This document shows, in pieces, positions 4,000 to 43,882 of a stretch of DNA of 64,000 nucleotides. The notes beneath the pieces are model-generated. The model ran no database searches and was not told the DNA's origin. It worked only from the letters and a program-made list of their open reading frames with translations. This stretch comes from Streptomyces sp. NBC_00341 (lineage in GTDB: Bacteria > Actinomycetota > Actinomycetes > Streptomycetales > Streptomycetaceae), in NCBI RefSeq assembly GCF_041435055.1, contig NZ_CP108002.1:2418001-2482000 (forward strand), written 5' to 3'. Within the stretch, counting starts at the first letter, position 1, and every line of letters starts with the position of its first letter. Made by a program: the position numbers and the translations under genes.

Positions 4000-4030
4000 G
4001 GGCCGGTCCGGGAAGGCCGTGCAGCGCCGT

Positions 4031-4125
4031 ACGGACGACCGGTGGCGCGGCATCCGGAGAATCATCAGCCGCACGCCGCCCAGCAGGAACGGACCCGACG
4101 TCCGGAAGGCCAAGGCGTAGCCGCG
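4031..4125 (-). pseudogene. duplicated remnant of an MFS transporter 3' end
   Basis: On the minus strand this stretch encodes GYALAFRTSG...RHRSSVRR in frame, nearly repeating the last 33 residues of the intact transporter at 4978-6402 (GYALAFRTSG...RHRSSVQR). At DNA level about 90 bp (4034-4123) align to 4991-5080 with roughly 12 mismatches and no indels. Nothing upstream on the minus strand continues the transporter. It is a partial, decaying duplication. The rest of the 309-bp gap between the response regulator and the DUF5133 gene shows no other gene. Confidence 0.75.
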
Positions 4126-4308
4126 GGTGGCACCAGGCCGGTGCCGGTGACGTCGAAGCCCATGGCCGTTGCCCACCCGCGGGGGCGGGCGGTCGCCCGA
4201 CTGCTCGACCGGTCGTCCGCTCCAGGCCCCCCGCGGCGAGCCGGTCACCGGGTGTGACTCGGCACGGAGGGGGCCCGGCACCCGACTGGTGGATCCACGA
4301 CGGGCCGT

Positions 4309-4572
4309 TCAGGCGGCCTGCAGTCCCTTACCTTGTTCGGAGGCCGTCCTCGGGGAGCCGACGGGGAAGATCGTGGTGTGCTCCCCGAGCAGCGCGTCGG
4401 CGATGCACAGGGCCTGCGGCACGTCACGGGTGCCGGTCATGACGCACAGGGTGTAGGCGGCGTCCTCGACCGCTCCCGCCGTGGAGTCTGTGGGGAAGCG
4501 GTCGTCGTGGATGCGGGCGTCGGCATAGCGGGCCAGGGCTACACGCAGGTCCTGCGGGCTGGGGTTCAGCAC
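4309..4572 (-). CDS. DUF5133 domain small protein
   Basis: This small protein (87 residues from the chosen start) carries the DUF5133 pattern seen in many Streptomyces proteins: an N-terminal DLRVALARYADAR helix and the AAYTLCVMTGTRDVPQAL core, then an ALLGEHT helix. The frame extends to an ATG at 4635, but the GTG at 4572 has GAGGAG nine bases upstream and gives the family-like start LNPSPQDLRV. It is probably cytoplasmic; function is unknown, and relatives often lie near anti-sigma-type ATPases. Here a truncated ATPase fragment lies about 230 bp upstream, with a decayed transporter tail on the other side, so the locus looks rearranged. Confidence 0.72.
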   Translation of the reverse strand: MLNPSPQDLRVALARYADARIHDDRFPTDSTAGAVEDAAYTLCVMTGTRDVPQALCIADALLGEHTTIFPVGSPRTASEQGKGLQAA

Positions 4573-4802
4573 GGTGAAGTACTCCTCATAGTCCGGTGTC
4601 GGGGCAGTGCCCCGGGCGGAGAGACCGCCTGTCATGGGATACCCGCTGCTGTCCGGCTGTGTGGATGCTCAGCGGCGCACGCGCCATTGCGAGACCCATC
4701 GGTCGCATGCCCCTGAACGCACCTGCCAATCAAGCGACTTGGAATTTCTTCGCACGTGTGGCCCGGCACACATGCCCGCCTGCCGCCTGACGCCCATGTA
4801 GT

Positions 4803-4985
4803 TCATGTGAGGGAGATCAGGGCGACGATGCTCTTGCCGCCCGGGTGGACGGTGACGGACACCTGCCTGGCGAGCCGACGCACCAGGGCCCAGCCGTAGC
4901 TCCCGGTGCGGCCGACCCCTGAGGTCTCGTTGCCGGCGTCGCAGCTGACCGGCAGGTCCGGGCCGGCGTCCGAGGGTTCAGCGCT
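4803..4985 (-). pseudogene. C-terminal fragment of a HATPase (anti-sigma/RsbW-like) protein
   Basis: The minus-strand frame ending with TGA at 4803-4805 encodes the tail of a regulatory ATP-binding protein: DLPVSCDAGNET, then GSYGWALVRRLARQVSVTVH and GGKSIVALISLT. The G-x-GWALVxxLA and PGGKS elements match the C-terminus of Streptomyces HATPase_c anti-sigma-factor-like proteins. There is no start codon or N-terminal ATPase domain; upstream the frame enters the end of the MFS gene, whose stop is at 4978-4980. I read it as a 5'-truncated relic left when the transporter gene was joined here. Confidence 0.6.
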
Positions 4986-6402: not shown

Positions 6403-6517
6403 GGCGTCATACTCGCAGCCGCCCCGCACCCCGTACATCGGTTTCCGGACCGTACCGGCCTCGGTCCGGCGGCGTAGGTCTCCGGGGCTCCGGTGGCCCT
6501 GTGGACCCACCCGGATC

Positions 6518-7714
6518 TCAGCGGCGCAGGAGTGTCACCACGGCGGCGCCGCCGAGCCCGATGTTGTGGGCGAGTGCGGTGCGGGCGTCGGGCACCTGGC
6601 GGGGGCCGGCCTCGCCCCTGAGCTGCCAGGTGAGTTCGGCGGCCTGGGCGATTCCGGTGGCGCCGAGCGGGTGTCCCTTGGAGATCAGTCCGCCCGAGGG
6701 GTTGACCACCCAGCGGCCGCCGTGGGTGGTGGCGCCGGACTCGACGAGCGGGCCGGACTCGCCCTCGCCGCACAGTCCGAGCGCCTCGTAGGTGAGGAGT
6801 TCGTTGATGGAGAAGCAGTCGTGGAGTTCGATGACGTCGAGGTCTTCGGCGCCGATGCCCGCGCTCTCGTACACCTGGCGGGCCGCCTCCCGTGACATGG
6901 GCAGGCCGACCGCGTCGATGCAGGTGCCGGAGGCGAAGGAGGCCTCGGTGTCGGTCGTCATGGCCTGGGCGGCGATCTCTACGGCCCGGTCACCGAGGCC
7001 GTGCTCCTCGACGAAGCGTTCGGAGACGACGACGGCGGCTGCTGCCCCGTCGGAGGTCGGTGAGCACTGGAGCCGGGTCAGGGGGTGGTGGATCGGTTTG
7101 GCGGCGAGGACTTCGTCGACCGTGTACGGGTCCTGGAACTGGGCGTACGGATTTCCCGTCGAGTGGCGGTGGTTCTTCGCGGCGACGGCGGCGAGCTGTG
7201 CCTCTGTCGTGCCGTACTTCTTCATGTGCTCGCGGGCCGCGTTGCCGAAGATCTGGGCGGTGGGCGGGGTCGTCTCGAAGCCGTGGGCGGCGGCCATGAT
7301 CCCGTAGTGCCGGGCGACCGGGGACGTCTTGAAATCACCCGCGCCGCCGTCGGAGCCGCCGCCGCCGAGCGATCCGCGCGCCATCTTCTCGAAGCCGAGC
7401 GCGAGGACGCAGTCGCTGCCGCCGCCCTCGACGAACTGCCGGGCCATCATCAGCGCGGTGGAGCCGGTGGCGCAGTTGTTGTTGATGTTGTAGACGGGTA
7501 TCCCGGTCAGCCCGAGTTCGTACACGGCCCGCTGTCCGGCGGTGGAGGCCTGGAAGCAGTAGCCGACGGCGGCCTGCTGGATGTCCTCGTACCCGATACC
7601 GGCATCGGTGAGCGCCGCCGTGCCGGCCTCCTTCACCATGTCCCAGTACTGCCAGTCGCGGCTCTCGGGCTTCTCGAACTTCGTCATGCCGACGCCGACG
7701 ATGTATGACCTCAT
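6518..7714 (-). CDS. lipid-transfer protein, thiolase family (SCPx-type)
   Basis: The 398-residue protein belongs to the non-specific lipid-transfer/SCPx-type thiolases, related to mycobacterial Ltp proteins. These act in, or derive from, thiolytic cleavage and aldolytic steps of sterol side-chain shortening. The nucleophile region is Cys81 ([14 protein letters not shown]); later catalytic regions are LHDCFSINE and [14 protein letters not shown]. The opening ([18 protein letters not shown]) is diagnostic. The gene starts 12 bp after the fused acyl-CoA dehydrogenase stop, so the two form an operon read from the promoter near 9917-9990, which holds two operator-like palindromes. I infer a role in beta-oxidation of a bulky, perhaps sterol-like, acyl-CoA; substrate is unproven. 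Confidence 0.85.
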
Positions 7715-7726
7715 GTTGGATTCCCT

Positions 7727-9916
7727 TCAGTCCCTGGGCAGGCCGAGGATGCGCTCGGCGACGACGTTGAGCTGAACCTGTGTGGTGCCGCCCGCGATGG
7801 TCAGGCAGCGGGACATCAAGAATCCGTGCACGGCCCGTTCCCCGGCTCCTTCGGCCACCGCGCCTGCGGGGCCGAGGAGTTCGAGGGTGAGTTCGGCGAC
7901 CTTCTGCTGGTGGGCGGTCTGGATGAGTTTGCGTACGGAGGCGCCCGCGCCCGGCTCCAGTCCTGAGACCTGTTGCAGTGTGGTGCGCAGCCCGATGCAG
8001 GCCAGTGCGTGGGCCTCGGCGGCGAGTGCGCCGATCCGGGCCCGGCAGGCGCCGTCGAGTCCGGCGGAGCGGTCGATCAGGGCTTCGAGTCCGGTGTCGA
8101 AGGACATCTGGTCGGCCATGTGGACGCGTTCGTTGCCCAGGGTGTTGCGGGCGACCCGCCAGCCGCCGTCGGCCTCGCCCACCAGGGCGTCGGGGGGCAG
8201 GATCACGTCGTCGAAGTAGACCTCGTTGAAGAGGGAGTCGCCGGTGATCTCCTTCAGCGGGCGGATGTCGATGCCCGCGGTGTTCTTCATGTCGACCAGA
8301 AAGTAGCCGAGACCCCGGTGCTTGGGCGCGTCCGGGTCCGTCCTGGCGAGCAGGATGCCGTGGTCGGCCCACTGGGCGGCGCTCGTCCACACCTTCTGGC
8401 CGTTGATCCGCCAGCCCTCGGGGACGCGTTCGGCGCGGGTGCGCAGCGAGGCGAGGTCGGAGCCGGCGCCGGGTTCGGAGAACAGCTGGCACCACTGGAG
8501 TTCGCCGCGCAGGGTGGGCAGGAGGTAGCGGTCCTGCTGCTCGGCCGTGCCGTGGGCGATGAGTGAGGGCACCACCCAGGTGGCGATGGAGAGGTCGCTG
8601 AGCTTCACCCCCTGTTCGCGCAACTCCTGTTGTACGGCGAGCTGTTGTACGGGTCCGGCGTCCAGTCCGTAGGGCGCGGGCAGGTGCGGGGCGGCGTAGC
8701 CGGTGGGCGCGAGGGCGCTGCGGGCGGCCCTGGGGTCCAGGCCACGGGCGGCGGCGACGGCCTCGCGGGCCGCCGCTCGGTGCGCCTCGGCCTCCGGCGG
8801 CAGCTCCAGGGTGAGGCTGCGGCGGGCCCCGGCGGCGGCGAGCCGGACGGCGCGCTGGCGGTGGGCGTCGCCGGAGCCCAGCAGTTGCCGTGCGACCAGG
8901 GCGCGGCGCAGGTAGAGGTGGGCGTCGTGCTCCCAGGTGAAGCCGATGCCGCCGAGGATCTGGATGGCGTCCTTGGCGCAGGTGTAGGCGGCGTCCAGGG
9001 CGGCCGACGCTGCGAGGGCCGCGGTCATGGACCGGGTCTCCGGGGTCTCGGTGGCCGCGCGGGCGGCGTCCCAGGCCAGCGCGCGGGCCTGCTCGACCCG
9101 TACGAGCATGTCCGCGCAGAGGTGTTTGACGCCCTGGAACTGTCCGATGGGGCGGCCGAACTGCTCGCGGACCTTGGCGTGTTCTGTGGCGGTGTCCAGC
9201 GACCGGGCCGCGGTGCCGCACGCCTCCGCGGCCAGGAGTACGGCGGCGAGGTCGCGGACGAGTGCGGAGTCGGTGGGCAGCAGCCGCCCGGCGGGGACCA
9301 GGACGCCTTCGGCCCGGACCTCCGCTGTGGGCCGGGTCGGGTCGGCGCTGCGGTGCGGGCGGGCGGTCAGCCCCCGGGCCGAGGTGTCGACGGCGAACCA
9401 GCGGGTGCCGGTGACCGAGGCGGCGGGGAGCAGCAGCAGGTCGGCCGCGTCGGCGGAGAGGACCGGGGGGAGTTCCCCGTCGAGCAGGTGGCCGTCCTCC
9501 TGCTCGACGGCGGTGAGGCTGCCGGGGCCGAGGGCGACGGCGCCGATGCGGCGGCCCGATGCGAGGTCCCGTACCAGTTCGTCCGTGCCGGGGGTGCGCG
9601 GGTTCGACGCGTGCAGCACGGCCGAGGCGAGGGTGCTCGCCAGGCAGGGGCCGGGGAGCGCGGCGCGGCCCGCCTCTTCGAGGACGACGGCGAGTTCGGG
9701 CAGTCCGCCGCCCTCTCCCCCGTACTCCTCGGGCAGGTGGATGCCGAGGAGGCCCTGTTCCGCCAGGCCGTCCCAGTATTCGGGGCGTGCGCCGGTGGCA
9801 GCGGGGGCGTCCGCGTCAAGAATCTTGCGGATTTCCCCGGGTGGTACGGCGCGGGCGAGCCATCCTCGTACGGCCCGCGCGAGCTCCCTGTGTTCTTCGG
9901 TGATTCCGATGCCCAT
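7727..9916 (-). CDS. two-domain fused acyl-CoA dehydrogenase (FadE-like)
   Basis: The 729-residue protein contains two tandem acyl-CoA dehydrogenase units. Unit one (about 1-340) ends with the signature ILGGIGFTWEHDAHLYLRRA. Unit two (about 370-729) carries QLFSEPGAGSDLAS and closes with CLTIAGGTTQVQLNVVAERI. Such double-length FadE proteins in mycobacteria (about 710-730 residues; FadE34 and FadE22 are examples) work as FAD flavoproteins on CoA thioesters, and FadE34 acts on sterol side chains. Start ATG 9916 opens MGIGITEEHRELARAV; the open frame beyond it is antisense to the MFS gene. It heads an operon with the lipid-transfer thiolase. A KstR-type box (9958-9971) and the TCTGAC palindrome (9973-9989) lie just upstream. 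Confidence 0.88.
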   Translation of the reverse strand: MGIGITEEHRELARAVRGWLARAVPPGEIRKILDADAPAATGARPEYWDGLAEQGLLGIHLPEEYGGEGGGLPELAVVLEEAGRAALPGPCLASTLASAVLHASNPRTPGTDELVRDLASGRRIGAVALGPGSLTAVEQEDGHLLDGELPPVLSADAADLLLLPAASVTGTRWFAVDTSARGLTARPHRSADPTRPTAEVRAEGVLVPAGRLLPTDSALVRDLAAVLLAAEACGTAARSLDTATEHAKVREQFGRPIGQFQGVKHLCADMLVRVEQARALAWDAARAATETPETRSMTAALAASAALDAAYTCAKDAIQILGGIGFTWEHDAHLYLRRALVARQLLGSGDAHRQRAVRLAAAGARRSLTLELPPEAEAHRAAAREAVAAARGLDPRAARSALAPTGYAAPHLPAPYGLDAGPVQQLAVQQELREQGVKLSDLSIATWVVPSLIAHGTAEQQDRYLLPTLRGELQWCQLFSEPGAGSDLASLRTRAERVPEGWRINGQKVWTSAAQWADHGILLARTDPDAPKHRGLGYFLVDMKNTAGIDIRPLKEITGDSLFNEVYFDDVILPPDALVGEADGGWRVARNTLGNERVHMADQMSFDTGLEALIDRSAGLDGACRARIGALAAEAHALACIGLRTTLQQVSGLEPGAGASVRKLIQTAHQQKVAELTLELLGPAGAVAEGAGERAVHGFLMSRCLTIAGGTTQVQLNVVAERILGLPRD

Positions 9917-9957
9917 GCGGATCCTCGCCGGTCGCAGCCACTGGAACGGCGCAAGAG

Positions 9958-9971
9958 TAGAACACGTTTCA
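9958..9971. promoter_or_regulatory. KstR-type operator
   Basis: TAGAACACGTTTCA fits the KstR consensus TNNAACNNGTTNNA at every fixed position. It lies 42 bp upstream of the acyl-CoA dehydrogenase start, in the gap to the divergent MFS gene, and a kstR gene is in this window. Binding is inferred. Confidence 0.7.
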
Positions 9972-9972
9972 A

Positions 9973-9989
9973 TCTGACGGAAGGTCAGA
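9973..9989. promoter_or_regulatory. TCTGAY-N5-GTCAGA palindrome, copy 1
   Basis: TCTGACGGAAGGTCAGA is a perfect inverted repeat with 5-nt spacer (7-bp arms counting the flanking A/T). It directly follows the KstR-type box. Three more copies with the same spacing occur at 22212, 36203 and 47517, each in a promoter region. Confidence 0.75.
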
Positions 9990-10011
9990 TCAGTATCTGT
10001 TTCGGGCCGGA

Positions 10012-10118
10012 CGGCCGGCGCCGGCCGCGACTGTGTCCTGTTCGCACCCCGTTCACCGGAATACCTCGGACATGCGGAAGGTTTCACCGTGCACACACTT
10101 GGCGGGCAGCGCTGCCCG
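10012..10118. promoter_or_regulatory. two 16-bp palindromes upstream of MFS gene
   Basis: Perfect palindromes CGGCCGGCGCCGGCCG (10012-10027) and CGGGCAGCGCTGCCCG (10103-10118) lie in the divergent gap before the MFS gene at 10188. They may be operators or form hairpins in the leader. High G+C makes the first less informative than the second. Confidence 0.4.
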
Positions 10119-10187
10119 CAGCACGGCCCGCACGGCCCGCACGCCTTTCCCCGTCCCTCCCTCTTCCGCTGCCCGGAGGCCGCACGT

Positions 10188-11981
10188 ATGCCACAGACGA
10201 CGCACGAACAGCAGTCCGCGGAGCTTCCTGATCCGGGGACGTCGAAGACCGGCAAGGGGATCGTCCCCGTGCTCGCCTTCGCGGGTATCACCGTCGCGGT
10301 GATGCAGACCCTGCTCGTCCCCGTCATCAAGGACCTGCCCGCCCTTCTCGACACCGACCCGTCCAACGCCACCTGGGTGATGACGGCCACGCTGCTCGCC
10401 GGAGCCGTCTCCACGCCGATCATGGGGCGGCTCGGGGACCTCAACGGCAAGCGGAAGATGCTGCTGGCGAGCCTCGCCGTGATGGTGATCGGCTCCCTGA
10501 TATGCGCCTTCACCGACGACCTCGTGATCATGATCGTGGGCCGCGCGCTCCAGGGCTTCGCCATGGGCGCCATCCCGCTGGGCATCGGCATCATGCGCGA
10601 CGAGCTGCCGCGCGAGAAGCTCGGCTCCGCGATGGCCCTGATGAGTTCCTCGATCGGGGTCGGGGGCGGACTGGCGCTGCCCGCCGCCGCCCTGGTCGCC
10701 CAGCACACCGACTGGCACACCCTCTTCTTCGGCTCGGCCGGTCTCGGCGTGCTCGCCATGGGGCTGACCGTGCTCGCGGTGCCGGAGCCCGTGCTGCGGG
10801 CCCCCGGCCGGTTCGACATCACCGGCGCGCTCGGCCTCTCGGCCGGACTGGTCCTCCTGCTGCTGCCCATCACCAAGGGCAGCGACTGGGGCTGGACCTC
10901 CCCCACCACCCTCGGGCTGGTCGCCGCCGGACTGGTGGTGCTGCTGCTGTGGGGCGTGTTCGAGCTGCGCAGCGACGCGCCCCTGGTCGATCTGCGGACC
11001 ACCGCACGCCGCGAGGTACTGCTCACCAACCTCGCCTCGATCATGGTCGGGGTCGCCTTCTACGCCGTCTCACTGGTCCTGCCGCAGCTCCTCCAGCTGC
11101 CGCTGTCCACCGGCTACGGCCTCGGCCAGTCGATGGTGGTCGCCGGGCTGTGCGTGGCGCCGCTGGGCCTGACGATGATGCTCGTCGCCCCGCTGTACGC
11201 CCGGCTGTCCGCCCGGTACGGCCCCAAGGTGTCGCTGATGCTCGGCATGGCGGTCATCGCCATCGGATACGGGGCCGGGCTCGGGCTGATGAGCGCCGCC
11301 TGGCAGACCGTCGTGATCGCGGTGGTCCTCGGCGCCGGCATCGGGCTCGCCTACTCCTCGCTGCCCGCACTGATCATCGGGGCCGTCGACGCCTCGGAGA
11401 CGGGCGCGGCGACCGGGCTCAACACCCTGATGCGCTCCATCGGCACCTCGGTGTCCAGCGCGGTGATCGGCATGGTGCTGGCGCACACCTCGACGCAGAT
11501 GGGCTCTGTCGCGGTGCCCAGCATGCAGGGGTTCCGCACCTCGTTCATGATCGCGACGGGCGCGGTGCTGGCCGGACTGGTGCTGGCCGCGTTCCTGCCC
11601 TCGCAGCGGGCGGCCGCCGCGCCGGTCCTGCTGGCGAGCAGCGCGGGCGACGAGACGGCCCGGCTGTCCGGCCTCCCGCTCCCGCTGCCCGGCTCCGGCT
11701 TCCGCGGCCGGGTCACCGACGCGGACGGGACCCCGGTGGCCGGGGCCAACGTCACCCTGATCGACCGGCAGGGCCGGCAGGCCGGGCTCACCACGACGGA
11801 CGCGGAGGGCCGGTACGCGCTGGCCGCCCCGGCCGGTGGCAGCTTCGTGCTGGCCGGATCGGCCGCCGGATACGCGCCGCGCGCCTACCCGGCGGCGCAT
11901 CCGGCGAGCGGACGGCCCGCCGAGTCCGATCTCGTGCTGACGCTCAGCGCACCGGCGCGTCGAACCTCGGTGCCGTCGTGA
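10188..11981 (+). CDS. MFS transporter with C-terminal carboxypeptidase-regulatory-like domain
   Basis: The 597-residue protein is a 14-TM DHA2-type exporter (about residues 20-480) joined to a soluble C-terminal module. The MFS part shows TPIMGRLGDLNGKRKM in loop 2-3 and GRALQGFAMGAIPLGIGIM. From about residue 503 the tail reads GFRGRVTDADGTPVAGANVT ... TDAEGRYALAAPAGG, the pattern of CarboxypepD_reg/Cna-B-like beta-sandwich domains. ATG 10188 has GGAGG eight bases upstream; an upstream ATG at 10089 lacks one. The gene is divergent from the acyl-CoA dehydrogenase operon and its 3' end overlaps the convergent peptidase E gene by 38 bp. Substrate is unknown; the extra domain may face the cytoplasm given an even TM number. 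Confidence 0.85.
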   Translation: MPQTTHEQQSAELPDPGTSKTGKGIVPVLAFAGITVAVMQTLLVPVIKDLPALLDTDPSNATWVMTATLLAGAVSTPIMGRLGDLNGKRKMLLASLAVMVIGSLICAFTDDLVIMIVGRALQGFAMGAIPLGIGIMRDELPREKLGSAMALMSSSIGVGGGLALPAAALVAQHTDWHTLFFGSAGLGVLAMGLTVLAVPEPVLRAPGRFDITGALGLSAGLVLLLLPITKGSDWGWTSPTTLGLVAAGLVVLLLWGVFELRSDAPLVDLRTTARREVLLTNLASIMVGVAFYAVSLVLPQLLQLPLSTGYGLGQSMVVAGLCVAPLGLTMMLVAPLYARLSARYGPKVSLMLGMAVIAIGYGAGLGLMSAAWQTVVIAVVLGAGIGLAYSSLPALIIGAVDASETGAATGLNTLMRSIGTSVSSAVIGMVLAHTSTQMGSVAVPSMQGFRTSFMIATGAVLAGLVLAAFLPSQRAAAAPVLLASSAGDETARLSGLPLPLPGSGFRGRVTDADGTPVAGANVTLIDRQGRQAGLTTTDAEGRYALAAPAGGSFVLAGSAAGYAPRAYPAAHPASGRPAESDLVLTLSAPARRTSVPS

Positions 11982-12672
11982 GCAGATGAGAGACGTCCGT
12001 CCCCGCCGGGAGCTCCTGCGGCTGCGCGCCGCGGGCGAACAGCCGCGCGGGGCGGGCGCCCTGGACCCGGGCCTGACGCCCGTTGACCCGCAGCCATGAG
12101 CCCTCGCGCAGTCCGAGCACCGGGACGTCGTTCTCCTCCAGGAACTCGGTGAGCCGTTCCTCGCGGGTCTCGCCCTTGTGGGTGCTGTCCGGGTCCGGGT
12201 CCTGGTAGTGCGGGTTGATCTGGAACGGGACGAGGCCGAGCGTCTCGAAGGACGGCGGCTGCACGATGGGCATGTCGTTGGTGGTGCGCAGGGTGGGCGA
12301 GGCCATGTTCGTCCCCGCGCTGGCCCCCATGTACGGCAGCCCCTCGCGCACCGCCCCGGTCACGGCGTCGCGCAGCCCGGTCCGGTAGAGCGCGCTGAGC
12401 AGCCGGAAGGAGTTGCCGCCGCCGATGAACACGGCGTCGGACGCGGCGAGTTCGGCGACCGGGTCGGCGTTCTCGTGGACGCCGCGGACGCTGATGCCGG
12501 CCGGTTCCAGGGCGTCGCGGACCCGGGTGGTGTACGCCGCGTAGTCGGCGAGCGCGTACGGCACGAAGGCGAGCCGGGCCTCCGCGGGCAGGAACGTCCG
12601 CACCGTGTCGAGGGCGTGTTCCAGGTAACCGCAGCCGTACTGCGTGGAGTTGGAGAGCAGGAGCAGATTCAC
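11944..12672 (-). CDS. pepE: dipeptidase E (peptidase E, S51 family)
   Basis: The 242-residue enzyme matches Salmonella/E. coli PepE, a cytoplasmic serine peptidase that hydrolyses N-aspartyl dipeptides. The nucleophile elbow GASAGTNM puts Ser118 close to the classical Ser120, and His155 (INPHYQ) matches the catalytic His. FIGGGNSFRLL is the conserved glycine loop. Length fits the family. Its 3' end overlaps that of the MFS gene convergently by 38 bp, so both transcripts run through each other. Upstream lies a short gap with a 27-bp tandem repeat and then the IclR gene on the same strand. Regulation is not evident. Confidence 0.88.
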   Translation of the reverse strand: MNLLLLSNSTQYGCGYLEHALDTVRTFLPAEARLAFVPYALADYAAYTTRVRDALEPAGISVRGVHENADPVAELAASDAVFIGGGNSFRLLSALYRTGLRDAVTGAVREGLPYMGASAGTNMASPTLRTTNDMPIVQPPSFETLGLVPFQINPHYQDPDPDSTHKGETREERLTEFLEENDVPVLGLREGSWLRVNGRQARVQGARPARLFARGAQPQELPAGTDVSHLLTTAPRFDAPVR

Positions 12673-12715
12673 GGGGTTCCTCTTGGTTCTCTTGGGTCAG
12701 GTCGTGCGTCGTGCG

Positions 12716-12769
12716 GGTGGAGCGGGGTCCGGCCGCCGGTCAGGTGGAGCGTGGCCCGACTGCCGGTCA
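12716..12769. repeat. 27-bp tandem repeat, two copies
   Basis: Two adjacent 27-bp units (12716-12742 and 12743-12769, each beginning GGTGGAGCG and ending GCCGGTCA) differ at about four positions. A third unit starts and breaks off. The second unit includes the stop codon of the IclR-type regulator (minus strand), so the repeat may affect its 3' end. Confidence 0.7.
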
Positions 12770-13588
12770 GGTGGTCCGGCGGGAGCGGGGTTTGGGGCGC
12801 TGCGGTGGATGGGTGAGGCGCCTCTCCAGCATGTCGGCCGCCTTGCGCAGCGCGTCGAGCCGGTTCTCCGGCGCCCCCTCGAACCGTTCCTTCGCGCCGC
12901 CCAGGCTGAGGCTTCCGTACGGTTCGCGTCCGAGGAAGACCGGTACGGCAACGGTCGCGATGCCGGCGTCGTACTCACCGACCGTCCAGGCGTAGCCCTG
13001 GGCGCGCACCTTCAGCAGCTCCGCCTCCAGCAGATCCGGATCGGTCACCGTCCGGTCCGTGAACCGGGCCATCGGGCGCCCCCGGAAGAGCCGGTGGCGC
13101 TGCTCGTCCGGCAGGTAGGCGTAGTACGACTTGCTGGTCGCCCCGGCGTGCGCCGGATACAGCTCACCGACCAGCGGGTAGTAGCGCAGCGGCCCCGTCT
13201 CGCCCTCCTCCGCGGCTACGCACCGCATGTGGAAGCTGTCCGGCAGGCAGAACAGCACGGTGTCGCCGGTCACCCGGCGCAGCTCCTCCAGGACGGGTCC
13301 GGCGAGCAGCTCCAGCGATCCTGAGCGCTCCCAGAGCCTGCCCAGGCGCAGCACGGCGGGGCCGATGCGGTAGCGGCGGGTGGCCGGGTCGGAGACCAGG
13401 AAGCCCCGGCCCGCGAGGGTGGCGAGCAGCCGCTGGGCCACCGAGGTGTCCCAGCCGAACTCCTCGGCGACCTCGGTGACGCCCCAGTCGGGTCTGGTCC
13501 GCTCGAACGCGAGCAGCACCAGGAGCGCCCGGTCGACGGTTTGCAGGGCCCCGGCCGGGGTCCGCCGGTCCAGATCGTAGTCCGCCAT
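12767..13588 (-). CDS. IclR-family transcriptional regulator
   Basis: The 273-residue protein has an N-terminal winged helix-turn-helix (about 15-75: ALQTVDRALLVLLAFERTRP ... VTEVAEEFGWDTSVAQRLLA) and a C-terminal IclR effector-binding domain (about 90-255, with RYYPLVGELYPAHAGATSKS). It is divergent from the DUF1177/permease/peptidase operon with 152 bp between starts, the usual arrangement for a local regulator responding to the operon's substrate. The gap has a short lower-GC patch around 13605-13650 that could hold its operator. Whether it represses or activates cannot be read from sequence. Confidence 0.88.
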   Translation of the reverse strand: MADYDLDRRTPAGALQTVDRALLVLLAFERTRPDWGVTEVAEEFGWDTSVAQRLLATLAGRGFLVSDPATRRYRIGPAVLRLGRLWERSGSLELLAGPVLEELRRVTGDTVLFCLPDSFHMRCVAAEEGETGPLRYYPLVGELYPAHAGATSKSYYAYLPDEQRHRLFRGRPMARFTDRTVTDPDLLEAELLKVRAQGYAWTVGEYDAGIATVAVPVFLGREPYGSLSLGGAKERFEGAPENRLDALRKAADMLERRLTHPPQRPKPRSRRTT

Positions 13589-13740
13589 GTGATCTCACCA
13601 TTCAGACCTGAGTTGCAGATAACGGGAAATGGTTGCGCTCAACGCTATCCGATCCCGAATCTGCTCTCAGCACCCCGTCCGGCGTCCCACTCCCTGCCGG
13701 GCGCCGGACGGGTGTGATGGATGCGCGAGAAAGGCCCCCC

Positions 13741-14694
13741 ATGTTGAAGTACGTACTGGACATCGTCGACCTCCTCGACGACCCGCAGGCCAATGGGAAG
13801 ACGGTCGTCGAGTACCTCGACTCCGTGGCTGGGGCCGAGGGCTCGTCCGCCGAGGTCACCACGGTCGCCGGCGAGCGCGGCTCGACGGACTTCGTGATGG
13901 TCCGCATCCCCGGCTCCCGGGGACGCACCGCCGGCGGCACCGCCCGCACCCTCGGTGTGGTCGGCCGGCTCGGCGGCATCGGCGCCCGGCCCGAGATGAT
14001 CGGACTGGTCTCCGACGCCGACGGAGCCGTCTCCGCCGTCGCCACCGCCGCGAAGCTGCTCGACATGCGCCGCCGCGGCGATGTGCTGCCCGGCGATGTG
14101 ATCGTCGCCACCCACATCTGCCCGGACGCGCCGACCGAGCCGCACGACCCGGTGCCGTTCATGGGCTCGCCCGTGGACATCGCCACCATGAACCGCCACG
14201 AGGTGACCGACGCCATGGAGGCCGTGCTCTCCATCGACACCACCAAGGGCAACCGCATCATCAACCACAAGGGCCTCGCCCTGTCGCCCACCGTCAAGGA
14301 GGGCTGGGTGCTCCGCGTCAGCGAGCAGCTCGGTGAGCTGCTGGCCGTGGTGACCGGTGAGCCCTTGGTCACATACCCCGTGACGACTCAGGACATTACG
14401 CCGTACGGTAACGGTGCACATCACATCAATTCGATCCTCCAGCCCGCCACCGCCACGGCCGCTCCCGTGGTCGGTCTCGCGGTCACCTCGGCCGCCGCGG
14501 TGCCGGGCTGCCAGACGGGTGCGAGTCACGAGAGCGACATCGCCTCCGCCGCCCGCTACGCCGTGGAGGTCGCCAAGGCCTACGGCGCGGGCCACCTGGA
14601 CTTCCACGACGCGGTGGAGTTCGACAACCTCGTCAACCGCTACGGGTCGCTGTCCCACCTGCAGACCCTCGGCCGCACACCCCAGGAGTCCTGA
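13741..14694 (+). CDS. DUF1177 family protein
   Basis: The 317-residue protein matches DUF1177, a family of unknown biochemical function. ATG 13741 follows an AGAAAGG ribosome site and opens MLKYVLDIVDLLDDPQANGK. Central segments DVIVATHICPDAPTEPHDPV and RIINHKGLALSPTVKEGW are rich in His, Asp and Glu and suggest a metal-dependent hydrolase or binding protein, which is inference only. Its stop TGA overlaps the permease ATG (TGATG), so translation is coupled. Context with an NCS1 permease, an M20 peptidase and an IclR regulator suggests a catabolic role on an imported N-containing compound or peptide-like substrate. Confidence 0.82.
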   Translation: MLKYVLDIVDLLDDPQANGKTVVEYLDSVAGAEGSSAEVTTVAGERGSTDFVMVRIPGSRGRTAGGTARTLGVVGRLGGIGARPEMIGLVSDADGAVSAVATAAKLLDMRRRGDVLPGDVIVATHICPDAPTEPHDPVPFMGSPVDIATMNRHEVTDAMEAVLSIDTTKGNRIINHKGLALSPTVKEGWVLRVSEQLGELLAVVTGEPLVTYPVTTQDITPYGNGAHHINSILQPATATAAPVVGLAVTSAAAVPGCQTGASHESDIASAARYAVEVAKAYGAGHLDFHDAVEFDNLVNRYGSLSHLQTLGRTPQES

Positions 14695-37877: not shown

Positions 37878-37959
37878 AGGACCGGCGCGGCCCCCTCCAC
37901 GGGCCGCCCCGGCGGCGGCGCCCGGTCCAGGCTCCCGCAGTACCCGCCCGGTAGAGTGT

Positions 37960-38180
37960 GCGAGTCGTCATCACGCCCGTTCAGGGGGAAGCCGGTGCGA
38001 ATCCGGCACTGACCCTTCCCCGAGCTCTCGACTTCGCTCGAGCAGGGGAGACCCCATCCCGTGACCGCCCCGTCGGCGGGGATCGGAATGCCCTGTCCGT
38101 GTCGTGACCGGCTCGTGCCATCGGGACCCCGGTGGCCGGCACCGTCGAGGTATACGGAGCCGGAGCCCGGTGCCTGTGTG
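37960..38180 (+). promoter_or_regulatory. probable cobalamin (B12) riboswitch
   Basis: The leader has the cobalamin-riboswitch core GGGGGAAGCCGGTGCGAATC (37984-38003) followed by CGGCACTG, with the run GACCCTTCCCC able to close the helix. About 150 bases on, GAGCCGGAGCCCGGTGCC (38157-38174) resembles the B12 box AGYCMGGAGACCKGCC. Downstream is an ECF vitamin/metal transporter operon, as expected. A run of GC hairpins between could form P6-P10. It probably lowers expression when B12 is plentiful. The rest of the 390-bp gap (37830-38219) holds no gene. Confidence 0.75.
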
Positions 38181-38219
38181 CGCCCGGGACCGGTTCCCGC
38201 AGGAGAGGCCCCGCCCGCC

Positions 38220-39485
38220 ATGACCGTACGCCGCAGCGCAGCCGCGCTCGCCGCCACCGCTGCCGTGCTCTGCGCGGCCGCAGCCGCAGCCCCGGCCGCG
38301 ATCGCCGCGCCGTCCCCCTCTCCGTCCCCGTCCACGGCGCTGCCCTCGGGGCTGTACGGCACGGCGGACCCGACGTACGACGGGGTGTGGCGGCAGTCGC
38401 TGGCCTTCGTCTCGCAGCGGGCCGTGGGCGTCATGCCCGCCGCGAAGGCCGTGGACTGGCTGGTCGGGCAGCAGTGCGACAGCGGGGCGTTCGCCGCGTA
38501 CCGCTCCGACCCCTCCGTGCCGTGCGACGCCAAGACCACCATCGACACCAACGCGACGGCGGCCGCAGTACAGGCGCTGCACGAGGTCGGCAAGCACGAG
38601 GAGCTCGTCGCCAACGGGCTCGACTGGCTGAAGTCCGTCCAGAACGAGGACGGCGGCTGGGGGTACACCGCCGGCAGCCCGAGCGACGCGAACTCCACCT
38701 CGATCGTGATCGGCGCCCTCGCCCGCGCCGGGGAGCGGCTCGGCGACATCACGACGCACGGCGGCAAGACCCCCTACGACGCCCTGCTCACCTTCGCCAT
38801 CCCCTGCGGCGGCAAGGACGGCGGCGCCTTCGCCTACCAGCCCGACAAGGCCGGCAAGCTCGCCGCCAACGGCGACGCCACCGCCGCGGGCGTGCTCGGC
38901 TCGCTCGGCAAGGGGCTCGTCGTCGGGGACACCGCCGCGGCCAAGGCCCCCACCTGCAGGACCAGCAACCCGCTCAGGCCGGAGCGGGCCGCCCAGAACG
39001 GCGCCCACTACCTCGCCGGGGCCCTCGCGAAGACCGGGCACCTCGACCAGCCGCCGATGCCGGGGGCCGAGGACAGCGCCCCGCAGCCCGACTTCGGCAA
39101 CACCGCCGACGCGGTCGTCGCCCTCTCCGCCTCCGGGCACAAGGACAAGGCCGCCGCCTCGGTGAACTGGCTGGCGAAGAACTCCGCCGGCTGGGCCGCG
39201 CAGAGCGGCCCCGCCGCCTACGCCCAGCTGGTCATGGCCGCCCACGCGACCGGCGCCGACGTGCACGACTTCGGCGGCGCCGACCTCGTCACCCAGCTGA
39301 ACGCGACCGGGCCCGCGCCCGCCTCCGTGTCGAAGCCGAAGCCGGTCGCCACCGAGGAGGAGAAGAAGGACAGCGGCGACGGGGACGGGATCGGCGGTCT
39401 CTGGTGGTTCGTCGGGATCGGGCTCGCCGTCGGCGCCGGCGCCGGATTCCTGATCAGCGGCCGCCGCAAGAACCGGCAGCTGTGA
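38220..39485 (+). CDS. secreted, membrane-anchored alpha/alpha-toroid protein, candidate B12 binder
   Basis: The 421-residue protein has a signal peptide (cut near IAA, residue 31). A helical-repeat body spans 45-360 with prenyltransferase/squalene-cyclase-type motifs (VDWLVGQQCDSGAF; WLKSVQNEDGGWGY; DFGNTADAVVALSASGHKDK). A Lys/Glu/Asp linker and one C-terminal TM (WWFVGIGLAVGAGAGFLISG) with a basic stop-transfer tail follow. The same alpha/alpha barrel forms the alpha domain of animal intrinsic factor and transcobalamin. Its place behind a cobalamin riboswitch and ahead of an ECF importer suggests it captures a corrinoid at the surface. AGGAGAGG precedes ATG 38220; its stop overlaps the next GTG (GTGA). 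Confidence 0.8.
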   Translation: MTVRRSAAALAATAAVLCAAAAAAPAAIAAPSPSPSPSTALPSGLYGTADPTYDGVWRQSLAFVSQRAVGVMPAAKAVDWLVGQQCDSGAFAAYRSDPSVPCDAKTTIDTNATAAAVQALHEVGKHEELVANGLDWLKSVQNEDGGWGYTAGSPSDANSTSIVIGALARAGERLGDITTHGGKTPYDALLTFAIPCGGKDGGAFAYQPDKAGKLAANGDATAAGVLGSLGKGLVVGDTAAAKAPTCRTSNPLRPERAAQNGAHYLAGALAKTGHLDQPPMPGAEDSAPQPDFGNTADAVVALSASGHKDKAAASVNWLAKNSAGWAAQSGPAAYAQLVMAAHATGADVHDFGGADLVTQLNATGPAPASVSKPKPVATEEEKKDSGDGDGIGGLWWFVGIGLAVGAGAGFLISGRRKNRQL

Positions 39486-40171
39486 GCGGGCGCGGACGGG
39501 CCACCGTACTGCTGGTGGTCCTGGGCGCCCTCCTGTCCGTGCTCGGCGCGGGGACGGCCCAGGCGGCCGGTTACCGCTACTGGTCCTTCTGGGAGGGCTC
39601 CGGCAGCGGGTGGGCGTACGCCACCCAGGGGCCGTCCCTGGTCCGGCCGGACGACGGCTCCGTGCAGGGCTTCCGGTTCGCCGTGAGCGCCGACTCCCAG
39701 GACGCGGCGAAACCGCGCCGCTCCCCCGACTTCGCGAAGATCTGCGCGGACACCCCCGCCGAGGACGGCAGCAAGCGGGTCGCGCTCGTCATCGACCCCG
39801 GCAACGCCGCCGACGCGCCGCAGGGCGAGACCCCGCCCCCGCCGCGTACCGCGTGCGCACGGGTCCCGAAGGACGCGAGCAGCGCGGAGGCGCTCGCCTC
39901 CGTGGCCAAGCCGCTGCGGTACGGGAGTGACGCGCTGCTCTGCGCGATCTCCGGCTACCCGGTCGCCGGGTGCGGTGAGCAGGTCTCGGGAACCACCGGT
40001 ACCGAGAGCGGCCGGGCCACGGCGTCCGCGCCCACGTCTGCTTCCGCTTCCCCTTCCGGCAGCGGTGGCTCCGGCGGCGGCGGTCCGTCCGCCGGGGTGC
40101 TCTTCGGGGTCGGCGCCGTCCTTCTGCTCGGCATCGCCGCAGTCGCACAGGCCCGCCGCCGCCGCGGATGA
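39482..40171 (+). CDS. SCO2322-family secreted, membrane-anchored protein
   Basis: The 229-residue protein starts at GTG 39482 inside the upstream stop. It has a signal peptide (cut near AQA, residue 28), a beta-rich domain of about 120 residues (YRYWSFWEGSGSGWAYATQG; RPDDGSVQGFRFAVS), four cysteines, a Ser/Thr/Gly linker and a C-terminal TM with an Arg-rich end. The aromatic opening and DGS-GFRF pattern recall, weakly, the small beta domain (DUF4430) that completes the B12 site of animal transcobalamin; I cannot confirm this. It is coupled on both sides within the ECF operon, so it probably works with the toroid protein outside the membrane. Confidence 0.78.
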   Translation: MSGRGRATVLLVVLGALLSVLGAGTAQAAGYRYWSFWEGSGSGWAYATQGPSLVRPDDGSVQGFRFAVSADSQDAAKPRRSPDFAKICADTPAEDGSKRVALVIDPGNAADAPQGETPPPPRTACARVPKDASSAEALASVAKPLRYGSDALLCAISGYPVAGCGEQVSGTTGTESGRATASAPTSASASPSGSGGSGGGGPSAGVLFGVGAVLLLGIAAVAQARRRRG

Positions 40172-41334
40172 ACGGCTCGACGGACGGCCCCGGGAACGCT
40201 CCGGTGGCCGTCGCCCCGGTCCCGGTCTGGCGCGCCCCCGCCGCGACCCGGAGCAACGCGCTGCCCGCCGGGGCGTGGTGGCTGTGGGCGCTGGGGCTCG
40301 CCACCGCCGCGTCCCGGACGACCAACCCGCTGCTGCTCGGCCTGCTGGTGGGCGTGGCGGGGTACGTGGTGGCCGCGCGCCGCACGGACGCGCCGTGGGC
40401 CCGCTCGTACGGGGCGTTCATCAAGATCGGGCTGTTCGTCATCGGGGTGCGGCTGCTCTTCTCCGTCTTCCTCGGCTCCCCGATCCCGGGTACGCACGTG
40501 GTCTTCACGCTGCCGGAGGTGCCGCTGCCGGACTGGGCGAAGGGGGTGCGGATCGGTGGCCGGGTCACGGCCGAGCAGCTGCTGTTCGCGCTGTACGACG
40601 GGGCGAAGCTGGCCACCCTGCTGATCTGCGTCGGCGCGGCGAACTCGCTCGCCAACCCGGCCCGGCTGCTGAAGTCGCTGCCCGGTGCGCTGTACGAGGC
40701 CGGAGTGGCCGTCGTCGTCGCGATGACGTTCGCCCCGAACCTGGTCGCCGACGTGGTGCGGCTGCGCACCGCCCGGCGGCTGCGCGGCCGGCCGACCGGT
40801 GGCGTCGGGGCGGTGCTCCAGATCGGGCTGCCGGTCCTGGAGGGCGCGCTGGAGCGTTCGGTCGCGGTGGCGGCCTCGATGGACGCGCGCGGCTACGGGC
40901 GCACCGCCGAGGTACCGGCCGCCGTCCGGCACACCACGAACGCCCTCACCCTGGGCGGGCTGCTCGGGGTCTGCGCCGGTACCTACGGGCTGCTGGCCGC
41001 GCAGGGCGCGGTGTACGGGCTGCCGCTGCTGATCGCCGGGCTGGTCGCGGCGATGGCCGGGCTGCGCCTGGGCGGGAGGCGTTCGGTGCGGACCCGCTAC
41101 CGGCCCGACCGGTGGGGGGTGCGGGCCTGGCTGGTCGCGGGCTCCGGTGCGGCGGTCGCGGTGGCGATGATCTGGGCGGGCGGCGCCGATCCCGAGGCGC
41201 TGCACCCCGGAGTCGTACCGCTGACCGCGCCGGTGCTGCCGCTGTGGCCCGCCGCCGCGGTGCTGATCGGTCTGCTGCCCGCGCTGGTCGCGCCCGTCCC
41301 GCCTTCCCCCACGGGCTTCGAGGAGCAGCTGTGA
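40168..41334 (+). CDS. ECF transporter transmembrane (T) component, CbiQ/EcfT family
   Basis: The 388-residue membrane protein matches CbiQ/EcfT. It has about six TM helices; the long cytoplasmic coupling helices carry the signature patterns LERSVAVAASMDARGYGR and the TARRLRGRPTG region, which dock the ATPases. It is longer than typical EcfT (about 260 residues) through an N-terminal tail and an extra C-terminal hydrophobic pair. ATG 40168 overlaps the upstream stop (ATGA), and its stop overlaps the ATPase GTG. It transmits ATP energy to the S component in the membrane. Confidence 0.88.
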   Translation: MNGSTDGPGNAPVAVAPVPVWRAPAATRSNALPAGAWWLWALGLATAASRTTNPLLLGLLVGVAGYVVAARRTDAPWARSYGAFIKIGLFVIGVRLLFSVFLGSPIPGTHVVFTLPEVPLPDWAKGVRIGGRVTAEQLLFALYDGAKLATLLICVGAANSLANPARLLKSLPGALYEAGVAVVVAMTFAPNLVADVVRLRTARRLRGRPTGGVGAVLQIGLPVLEGALERSVAVAASMDARGYGRTAEVPAAVRHTTNALTLGGLLGVCAGTYGLLAAQGAVYGLPLLIAGLVAAMAGLRLGGRRSVRTRYRPDRWGVRAWLVAGSGAAVAVAMIWAGGADPEALHPGVVPLTAPVLPLWPAAAVLIGLLPALVAPVPPSPTGFEEQL

Positions 41335-43058
41335 TCCGGTTCGACGATGTTTCCGTGCGGTACGAGGGGGCCGGGCGCCCCGCCCTGTCGGGGGTCGATC
41401 TGACCGTTCCCGAGGGTGAGCTGGTGCTGCTCATCGGCCCCTCGGGGGTCGGCAAGTCGACTTTGCTGGGTGCCGTGTCGGGTCTGGTGCCGCACTTCAC
41501 CGGGGGGCGGCTGACCGGGCGGGTCACCGTCGGCGGGCGCGACACCCGCACGCACAAGCCGCGCGAGCTGGCGGATCTCGTCGGCACGGTGGGCCAGGAC
41601 CCGCTCTCCCACTTCGTGACCGACACAGTCGAGGACGAGCTGGCGTACGGCATGGAGTCGCTGGGCCTGGCCCCTGACGTGATGCGGCGGCGGGTCGAGG
41701 AGACCCTCGACCTGCTGGGCCTGGCCGGGCTGCGGGACCGGCCGATCGCCACGCTCTCCGGCGGCCAGCAGCAGCGGGTCGCGATCGGCTCCGTCCTCAC
41801 CCCGCACCCCCGGGTCCTGGTGCTGGACGAGCCGACGTCCGCGCTGGACCCGGCGGCGGCGGAGGAGGTCCTCGCGGTCCTCCAGCGGCTCGTCCACGAC
41901 CTGGGCACCACGGTCCTGATGGCCGAGCACCGGCTGGAGCGCGTCGTGCAGTACGCCGACCAGGTCGTCCTGCTGCCCTCGCCGGGCGCCGCCCCGGTGA
42001 TGGGCACCCCCGCCGATGTCATGGCCCTCTCCCCGGTGCATCCGCCGGTCGTGGCGCTCGGGCGGCTGGCGGGCTGGGACCCGCTGCCGCTCTCGGTACG
42101 GGACGCCCGGCGGCGGGCCCCCGGGATGCGGGAGCGGCTGGCGGGTATGGAGCCGGTCCCGGTCGGTGGTGCGGCCGGGCCGTCGCTGCCGTCCGGGGTG
42201 ACGGCCGCCGCCCCCCGCCCCGCCGCGCACCGGTCAGGGCTGGGCAGACTGCTCGGCCTGGTCCCCCGGGAGGCCGCCGCGCCCGAGCCCGTCACCGACG
42301 CCACCGCCCGGATCGAGCGCCTCGGGGTGCGGCGCGGCCGGATCGAGGCGCTGCGCCGGGTCACGCTCACCGTCGCGCCCGGCGAGACCGTCGCGCTCAT
42401 GGGACGTAACGGAGCGGGCAAGTCCACCCTGCTCGCCGCCCTCGTCGGCATGGTCGAGCCCACCTCCGGCAGCGTCCTGGTCGGCGGCCGGACCCCGCAC
42501 CGCACGCCGCCGCGCGAGATGGTGCGCCGGGTCGGGCTCGTACCGCAGGAACCGCGCGACCTGCTGTACGCGGACACGGTCGCCGCCGAGTGCGCGGCGG
42601 CGGACGCCGACGCGGGCGCCGCACCGGGCAGCTGCCGGGCCCTGGTCTCCGAGCTGCTGCCGGACGTACCCGACACCACCCACCCCCGCGATCTCTCCGA
42701 GGGCCAGCGCCTCGCCCTGGCCCTCGCCCTCGTGCTCACCGCCCGGCCCCCGCTGCTGCTCCTGGACGAGCCGACCCGTGGCCTGGACTACGCGGCGAAG
42801 GCCAGGCTCGTCGGGGTGCTGCGCGCGCTGGCGGCGCAGGGCCACGCGATCGTGCTGGCCACGCACGATGTGGAGCTGGCCGCCGAGCTGGCGCACCGGG
42901 TGGTGATCCTGGCCGACGGGGAGGTGGTGGCGGACGGGCCGACCCCACAGGTCGTGGTCTCCTCCCCGGCGTTCGCCCCGCAGATCGCGAAGATCCTGGC
43001 CCCTCAGGAGTGGCTCACCGTGACCCAGGTGCGCGCGGCGCTGGGGGGTGGCGCGTGA
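41331..43058 (+). CDS. ECF transporter double ATPase (A/A' fused)
   Basis: The 575-residue protein carries two complete ABC ATPases. The first (1-240) has Walker A GPSGVGKST, signature LSGGQQQRVAIGS and Walker B VLVLDEPTSALD. The second (about 320-550) has Walker A GRNGAGKST, signature LSEGQRLALALAL and Walker B LLLLDEPTRGLD. A Pro/Ala linker of about 70 residues joins them. Most ECF systems use two separate ATPases; here they are fused, common in actinobacteria. The second signature has E in place of G, still likely functional. GTG 41331 overlaps the T-component stop; its stop overlaps the S-component GTG. Confidence 0.92.
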   Translation: MIRFDDVSVRYEGAGRPALSGVDLTVPEGELVLLIGPSGVGKSTLLGAVSGLVPHFTGGRLTGRVTVGGRDTRTHKPRELADLVGTVGQDPLSHFVTDTVEDELAYGMESLGLAPDVMRRRVEETLDLLGLAGLRDRPIATLSGGQQQRVAIGSVLTPHPRVLVLDEPTSALDPAAAEEVLAVLQRLVHDLGTTVLMAEHRLERVVQYADQVVLLPSPGAAPVMGTPADVMALSPVHPPVVALGRLAGWDPLPLSVRDARRRAPGMRERLAGMEPVPVGGAAGPSLPSGVTAAAPRPAAHRSGLGRLLGLVPREAAAPEPVTDATARIERLGVRRGRIEALRRVTLTVAPGETVALMGRNGAGKSTLLAALVGMVEPTSGSVLVGGRTPHRTPPREMVRRVGLVPQEPRDLLYADTVAAECAAADADAGAAPGSCRALVSELLPDVPDTTHPRDLSEGQRLALALALVLTARPPLLLLDEPTRGLDYAAKARLVGVLRALAAQGHAIVLATHDVELAAELAHRVVILADGEVVADGPTPQVVVSSPAFAPQIAKILAPQEWLTVTQVRAALGGGA

Positions 43059-43882
43059 GCGGCACGACGGGCCGGAGCGCCCGGCCGGTGCGGCTCGGGC
43101 CGCGGGCCGTCGCCGCGCTGGTGCTGATCAGCGCGATCGGGGTGGTCGCCTTCGGCTGGCCGCTGCTGGCCGGGGCCGATTCGGGTCTCGCGCACGCGCA
43201 GGACGCGCCGTGGTTGTTCGCCGCGCTGCTGCCGCTGCTGGTCGGGGTGGTGGTCGCGATGATCGCGGACGCCGGGCTGGACGCGAAGGCGGTGGCGATG
43301 CTGGGGGTGCTGGCCGCCGTCGGCGCGGCGCTGCGGCCGCTGGGGGCGGGCACGGCGGGGCTGGAGCCGATGTTCTTCCTGATGGTGCTGAGCGGTCGGG
43401 TGCTGGGGCCAGGGTTCGGATTCGTGCTGGGCTCGGTGACGATGTTCGCGTCCGCGCTGCTGACCGGCGGGGTGGGCCCGTGGATGCCGTTCCAGATGCT
43501 GTCGATGGGCTGGTTCACGATGGGCGCGGGCCTGCTGCCCGCACCGGACCGGCTGCGCGGGCGCGCCGAGCTGCTGATGCTGGCGGCGTACGGGGCGGTC
43601 GCGGCGTTCGCGTACGGGACGATCATGAATCTGTACGGCTGGACCATCGTGCCGGGCCTCGGCTCGGGGATCTCCTTCCATCCCGGTGACCCGCTCGGCG
43701 ACAACCTGGTGCGCTTCCTCGCCTACTGCACGGCCACCTCGGTCGGCTGGGACCTGGGCCGGGCCGTGCTCACCGTCGTACTGACGCTGACGGTCGGGGC
43801 GGCGCTGCTGAAGGCGCTGCGCAGGGCCACCCGGCGTGCCGCCTTCGAGGCCCAGGTCACATTCGACGTCCCGGCTGAGTGA
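43055..43882 (+). CDS. ECF transporter substrate-binding (S) component
   Basis: The 275-residue membrane protein has about six TM helices in the ECF S-component arrangement: VAALVLISAIGVVAFGWPLL, PWLFAALLPLLVGVVVAMIA, a mid-part FVLGSVTMFASALLTGGVGP, then FQMLSMGWFTMGAGLLPAP. The motif FFLMVLSGRVLGPGFGFVLG and the Gly/Trp-rich centre are typical of S subunits that bind a vitamin. Under the cobalamin riboswitch, a corrinoid, cobinamide or cobalt is the likely substrate. It is the last gene of a five-gene set joined by four start/stop overlaps. Confidence 0.88.
   Translation: MSGTTGRSARPVRLGPRAVAALVLISAIGVVAFGWPLLAGADSGLAHAQDAPWLFAALLPLLVGVVVAMIADAGLDAKAVAMLGVLAAVGAALRPLGAGTAGLEPMFFLMVLSGRVLGPGFGFVLGSVTMFASALLTGGVGPWMPFQMLSMGWFTMGAGLLPAPDRLRGRAELLMLAAYGAVAAFAYGTIMNLYGWTIVPGLGSGISFHPGDPLGDNLVRFLAYCTATSVGWDLGRAVLTVVLTLTVGAALLKALRRATRRAAFEAQVTFDVPAE

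Follow-up and report, generated by a model that had tools for sequence, protein, structure and literature searches.

Positions 37,960 to 43,882 of the window (the whole 64,000-nucleotide stretch of Streptomyces sp. NBC_00341 DNA that was analysed; contig NZ_CP108002.1, positions 2,418,001 to 2,482,000 of the forward strand, from a genome of 9.06 Mb) hold five genes, here called A to E, that follow a putative cobalamin riboswitch and are joined by four 4-nt overlaps (in order GTGA, ATGA, GTGA and GTGA). An initial annotation of the same DNA, made from its letters alone, had described five overlapping genes behind a riboswitch, and both the coordinates and the overlaps agree with that description. 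We believe that the operon probably encodes an importer for corrinoids, equipped with a transcobalamin-like capture pair that is split between two genes, A and B, and circularly permuted in both. Read from its 5' end, the locus contains:

37959..38109, forward strand: putative cobalamin riboswitch aptamer (79.1 bits with the leader model R1; 22.7 bits, sub-threshold, with RF00174)
38016..38057, forward strand: palindromic insert of ~42 nt, resembling a repetitive extragenic palindromic (REP) element, in the small loop 3' of the conserved GGUGCGAAUCC hairpin (placed from the sequence and the model alignment)
38220..39485, forward strand: gene A, secreted, anchored alpha/alpha toroid of the SCO2321 family, circular permutant at the profile level (NF053823, 587 bits; AlphaFold predicted local distance difference test score, pLDDT, 93.8)
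39482..40171, forward strand: gene B, secreted, anchored protein of the SCO2322 family, probable circularly permuted transcobalamin-type beta-grasp domain (NF040672, 230 bits; DUF4430 via normal-order relatives)
40168..41334, forward strand: gene C, EcfT/CbiQ-like transmembrane component (PF02361, 19.9 bits, under the cut-off of 25)
41331..43058, forward strand: gene D, double ATP-binding cassette (ABC) ATPase with two EcfA/CbiO-like halves (two PF00005 stretches; cbiO family TIGR01166 above its cut-off)
43055..43882, forward strand: gene E, S component of the energy-coupling factor (ECF) type (PF12822, 23.4 bits, under the cut-off of 30.7)

Gene B belongs to a family, NF040672 (cut-off 85 bits), whose name carries no function; the NCBIfam names SCO2321 and SCO2322 are both taken from S. 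coelicolor genes. NF040672 scores above its cut-off in 68 of the 197 genomes of the class, and in four further genomes (G064, G086, G104 and G190) a single open frame matches both of its halves, the second ahead of the first. Twenty regions sort into two operon types, with B arranged either as N-half/C-half, as in Streptomyces, or as C-half/N-half, the order referred to here as ‘normal’. When SCO2322 was compared by HHalign with an alignment (A4) of 12 B domains of the second type, drawn from 11 regions, the native sequence matched in two swapped pieces (E 3.7e-16 and 3.8e-10), whereas exchange of its halves gave one piece of 101 columns (4e-25); five column shuffles of this comparison stayed at or below 0.7% probability. 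A reciprocal search matched 109 of the 197 genomes, the window and many of its relatives showing the same swap, and normal-order B is present in at least 45 of the 197 (a hand count among the matches listed, taking unbroken matches that start at profile position 6 or below and end at 96 or above). Two genomes of the genus Streptomyces (G139 and G213) carry both a permuted and a normal-order B, in separate places.

The toroid behaves in an equivalent manner. Compared with seven toroids from normal-order operons, the Streptomyces A profile matches piecewise, in two swapped parts (9e-37 and 2.1e-16), whereas the re-ordered profile gives one piece of 299 columns (1e-52), with eight column shuffles reaching at most 0.8% probability; the ~110 residues that open the normal-type toroid sit C-terminally in Streptomyces. 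Since toroids consist of repeats that resemble one another, and weaker matches shifted by a repeat do appear, the swapped matches might be put down to artefacts of repeats, or to convergent local similarity, rather than to circular permutation. We consider this very improbable: the re-ordered A and B each give one near-full-length match that is better than either piece, re-ordering of the toroid at six arbitrary points works best at the column nearest the proposed junction, the junction sequences coincide by eye, and the column shuffles fail. At the level of sequence profiles both permutations, missed by the initial annotation, are thus shown, and the standing of SCO2322 as a circular permutant of the normal-order family is, on this footing, firm.

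Permuted B is found with permuted A in the Streptomyces loci of alignment A3, and also in L084 and L090 and, as judged from one-piece matches to the permuted profile, in G115 and G227. Among 30 normal-order loci, 11 of them places already included in the earlier regions, a collinear, one-piece toroid lies beside B in 26, in a separate frame in all 26 and sometimes cut by the locus end; the other four comprise two loci at contig ends (L220 and L221), one with its toroid 3' of E (L210, the same as L081), and one with no match (L223). No mixed order of A and B was seen in the toroid-bearing loci examined; the pairing of permuted with permuted and normal with normal suggests a joint ‘re-plumbing’ of the two chain ends, which would alter the way in which the clamp is seated on the membrane. 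Hydrophobic C-terminal anchors can be picked out by eye in both operon types, and the permutation would therefore shift the point at which the anchor leaves each domain. A tree of C, D and E combined did not separate a single origin of the permutation from several; the toroid order of animal transcobalamin we take to be that of the normal type. Of the sequences prepared for the structure alignments, 79 of 81 were used for B and 78 of 80 for A; L113 and L114 were left out, and L093 had already been dropped for A as cut. Alignment A7 lacks L076, whose extracted sequence contains a stop.

Gene A scores well above the cut-off of its family (300 bits), and NF053823 exceeds that cut-off in 36 of the 61 genomes searched, i.e. 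in 36 of the 37 Streptomyces among them. A signal peptide and a C-terminal hydrophobic stretch can be read by eye, and the AlphaFold model is a confident alpha/alpha toroid, bearing out the secreted, anchored toroid first proposed. As far as the model goes the toroid fold is real, yet the fold alone is no pointer to transcobalamin: the toroid is seen here as a separate protein, and the same fold is common to cyclases and prenyltransferases. The DxDD motif is catalytic in class II terpene cyclases such as squalene-hopene cyclase; there is no D-x-D-[DE] motif in gene A. In print, SCO2321 has been called a ‘hypothetical protein’, its signal sequence having been used for a cell-penetrating peptide (PMC9237094).

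Gene B is a probable relative of the transcobalamin beta domain, a second point that the initial annotation overlooked. The SLBB transcobalamin-type order is given as strand 1, strand 2, helix, insert and strands 3-5 (PMC1949818, where ‘permutation’, in the text concerned, refers to the E1 C-terminal domain), and by eye the normal-order B type fits this order. In a profile-profile comparison with 29 DUF4430 sequences (of 30; L183 was left out for a stop), normal-order B is collinear over 96 columns, its whole length, at 84% probability, whilst eight shuffles remain at or below 0.3%; in the AlphaFold model of B, strands and helix follow in the order that the permutation predicts. The domain is encoded by a gene of its own, and not in the same chain as the toroid. 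Towards its C-terminus (~40085-40168) gene B resembles a GPS-CTERM sorting signal (20.9 bits, cut-off 28), and the protein may be processed rather than simply anchored.

Genes C to E resemble, in make-up and order, the set expected of an ECF importer (a T component, a pair of ATPase domains, an S component), in support of the importer type originally assigned: the two ABC ATPase domains of D are clear, whereas C and E, as single sequences, match the CbiQ/EcfT and ECF S families below the cut-offs. Within the E family, PF12822 is found in 20 of 23 members and a riboflavin S family in 8 (E-values up to 0.1); at the same limit CbiM is not among the Pfam matches of the 23, nor do these members share an invariant histidine. 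Both absences disfavour cobalt as the substrate. No sequence match of gene E to solved chains was detectable.

The leader is a putative cobalamin riboswitch in which pairing and core are conserved and by which corrinoid would be sensed. At gathering score Rfam returns no match in the window; a permissive search of 501 bases with the Rfam model, the check envisaged at the outset, places RF00174 at 37985-38054 (E 0.00086), at 22.7 bits, below the cut-off of 31.5. Insert-free relatives score up to 48.8 bits, and the low score of the window is probably due to the palindromic insert in its loop. The conserved core and pairing of RF00174 are nonetheless present, as judged from the Rfam alignment, the leader model and covariation. 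Against model R1, built from 15 other Streptomyces leaders with the window excluded, the leader reaches an E-value of 4.9e-15 (the E-values of this model being rough), and R1 matches in 76 of 80 named Streptomyces loci. These are the 80 best gene B matches rather than a random sample, the closest being Streptomyces sp. AW19M42 (94% identity in the best segment of gene B), and some may be the same genomes as the source leaders of R1; of the four loci that lack a match, L093 and L127 start too near gene A, and L153 and L155 are true misses. All five covariation measures exceed both 500 shuffles and slid structures, in an alignment (A6) that was fitted to the model and contains one false row; the minus-strand row of L135, the second for that locus (E 0.12), is part of it without being counted as a locus.

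Upstream of the SCO2321-family gene, Rfam finds a match of the cobalamin clan in 20 of 30 same-genus loci (E at or below 0.01; the locus of the window is among the 30 and not the 20), and the core motif is found by pattern in 27; outside these 27, Rfam still detects the element in L018, a variant can be made out by eye in L035, and nothing of the kind is visible in L037. At gathering score, a riboswitch of the cobalamin clan lies directly 5' of the operon, on the same strand, in five of nine and three of nine regions in two region sets. The RNA first read from the sequence is therefore upheld by the R1 score and its recurrence among the named loci, sub-threshold as its RF00174 match may be.

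The 38-nt core of the insert has two further copies in the source genome, with at most 3 mismatches. Inserts at the same aptamer loop are seen by eye in L142, L144, L163 and L109, and also in L011, L019, L022, L025, L031 and L033; these palindromic, REP-like elements are of at least two sequence types (that of L025 differs), as though they were repeatedly aimed at this loop or simply tolerated there. Upstream of gene A in five loci (L131, L117, L124, L123 and L136), the rest, or the 3' half, of the aptamer is, by eye, lost beyond the insert; those operons may therefore have escaped riboswitch control.

Across the source genome RF00174 matches at nine places (E up to 10), of which five are above the cut-off; these five precede genes resembling metE, cbiB, ribonucleotide reductase alpha, cobN and a BtuC permease (metE and cobN are truncated at the end of the locus; the permease falls below every family cut-off). 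Weak matches at two loci (L006 and L008) score 25.3 and 19.3 bits. At L005 (1501-2831; G000:C1, ~7394573), a FecCD/BtuC-type permease stands behind a cobalamin riboswitch, at 33 bits; its best NCBIfam match, below cut-off, is ‘putative F420-0 ABC transporter permease’, a family that may be hiding corrinoid importers.

From its cobN and cbiB genes, the host probably makes its own B12. Both genes are preceded by riboswitches, some operons adjoin cobN and cobT (in L087 the permuted operon lies between a riboswitch-preceded cobN and cobT), and the operon has parts of the CbiQ/CbiO type: all this would also suit an ECF system whose cargo is not complete cobamides but cobalt, or a corrinoid precursor, to feed B12 synthesis in the host. 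We regard this as improbable. Beyond what the E family tells us, two extracellular proteins would be out of place for a metal ion, and the operon also occurs in genomes with no CobN match, namely eight of 12 permuted-B genomes picked by hand (CobN, and not the anaerobic pathway, being the marker of B12 synthesis); what remains of this alternative is a corrinoid precursor such as cobinamide. Corrinoid, the substrate favoured from the start, is supported as the likely one.

Eight of the same 12 genomes give no match to the permuted-toroid profile. Four have neither CobN nor toroid (the small genomes G112, G141 and G075, together with G181), four have the toroid and no CobN (G074, G155, G115 and G227), and four CobN and no toroid (G069, G080, G208 and G216). 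In G112, a genome of 1.35 Mb, an adenosylcobalamin (AdoCbl) riboswitch lies directly 5' of B-C-D-E (L088), probably an acI-type cobalamin ECF module; in G181 a permuted SCO2322-type protein (L089, 8513-9298) stands in a region with no ECF genes or toroid. A normal-order operon near a riboswitch-preceded metE is found in L080 (G145), where positions 2673-14399 hold four gathering-score cobalamin riboswitches within ~12 kb, adjoining metE, and two successive toroid plus beta-grasp gene pairs ahead of one ECF set.

A number of these results count against a corrinoid importer with a transcobalamin-like capture pair, and have to be set beside those that favour it. The latter include, besides the recurrent riboswitch, the two permutations and the DUF4430 link of normal-order B, the situation of the L087 operon between cobN and cobT and of the L080 operon near metE, and the permuted B of G112, G141 and G075, small genomes with neither CobN nor toroid. 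By fold and by sequence the toroid is nearer to terpene cyclases than to transcobalamin. PF13243 matches one stretch of gene A over its cut-off, and although the structural comparison proposed in the initial annotation does recover human transcobalamin (2bb5), Foldseek ranks it only 43rd (E 8.1e-4), behind drimenyl diphosphate synthases (at the top, with squalene-hopene cyclases), squalene-hopene cyclases and prenyltransferases. For B, a PDB profile search with the normal-order type found no transcobalamin, and fold searches with the model of B itself (pLDDT 69.5) gave nothing useful. Neither gene B nor 12 normal-order relatives (E up to 10) match Pfam DUF4430 (PF14478), and SCO2322 compared directly with DUF4430 reaches 2.4% probability, the re-ordered form doing no better than the native; it is because of these last two results that we grade the assignment of SCO2322 as a permuted transcobalamin-type beta-grasp domain as moderate and indirect. 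Of 18 wider regions, 10 have no riboswitch directly 5' of the operon at gathering score; some operons lack the toroid, which is therefore not needed everywhere; and the host has cobN and cbiB, whereas the bacterial toroid/SLBB proteins described by Burroughs et al. (2007, PMC1796856) come for the most part from organisms with incomplete B12 synthesis.

One could, from part of this, take A and B for surface proteins of some other role, such as cell-wall attachment or an enzyme-like toroid, the ECF part alone moving the corrinoid. The nearness of the toroid to terpene cyclases, in fold and in short sequence stretches, fits such a role, and known ECF transporters bind substrate by their S component (PMC5997447). 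It strikes us as unlikely all the same, as the D-x-D-[DE] motif is missing from A, A and B stay next to ECF genes behind the same riboswitch, and B is distantly linked to a B12-binding domain type.

The placing of a capture protein ahead of an ECF set for corrinoid uptake is not, as the initial annotation supposed, a new design; it had already been predicted by Burroughs et al. (2007, PMC1796856), who joined the toroid, SLBB, CbiO/CbiQ and B12 scavenging. In transcobalamin and intrinsic factor a toroid and a beta-grasp domain sandwich B12, and for the bacterial proteins that combine a toroid with a transcobalamin-type SLBB domain, which as a rule are predicted to share an operon with CbiO-like and CbiQ-like genes, B12 scavenging was proposed as the role (PMC1796856). 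The operon described here shares with those systems its extracellular toroid and beta-grasp domain and its CbiO-like and CbiQ-like genes; it differs in that A and B, where those systems commonly have a fused toroid-SLBB chain, are separate genes, both permuted and preceded by a riboswitch, and in that its host carries cobN and cbiB. The words ‘permut’, ‘circular’ and ‘riboswitch’ are absent from the main text of that paper. Animal transcobalamin and intrinsic factor have the same toroid and beta-grasp pair, which the 2bb5 match of the A model recalls, but transcobalamin is one soluble chain, where the operon has two anchored proteins. Measured against their normal-order counterparts in other actinobacteria, A and B are both permuted, and binding, in our case, is inferred.

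Two further systems are informative. ECF-CbrT of Lactobacillus delbrueckii is an ECF-type importer of cobalamin and cobinamide, which our putative importer would resemble in this respect; for ECF-CbrT, the text concerned describes no separate extracellular capture protein (PMC5997447). In acI genomes, from which B12 synthesis is absent, ECF modules behind cobalamin/AdoCbl riboswitches have been proposed as cobalamin transporters; the likeness lies in the riboswitch and the ECF genes, whereas the account of these modules mentions no beta-grasp protein, toroid or permutation (PMC5301498). As far as the open-access literature searched allows us to say, what is new is the split, doubly permuted actinobacterial form, its placement behind a riboswitch, and the existence of toroid-free versions; the split, permuted form was not found in print in that literature.

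A scheme for how such an importer might work follows from homology. With ample corrinoid, the small cobalamin riboswitch would, to judge from its family, hold expression low; on shortage of corrinoid, the toroid A and the beta-grasp protein B would be produced, each from its own gene and each anchored in the membrane on the outside of the cell. As counterparts of the two transcobalamin domains, these would hold the corrinoid between them and pass it to the S component E, through which the T component C and the double ATPase D would power import. The double permutation, for its part, would relocate the anchor-bearing chain end on both A and B. Binding of corrinoid, pairing of A with B, hand-over and the direction of transport are all parts of this scheme that we infer, the A-B clamp from homology. 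The specific picture of a ‘split transcobalamin’, whose two anchored, permuted domains close around a corrinoid at the cell surface and dock on the ECF S component, is a tentative one, to which we give close to an even chance.

Were the proposal to hold, an ECF importer would be able to use extracellular capture proteins, and two widespread, nameless actinobacterial families, SCO2321 and SCO2322, would acquire a function. The intrinsic factor/transcobalamin clamp would have a bacterial counterpart whose two parts can be separated, and there would be one more example of circular permutation in both members of a functionally linked protein pair.

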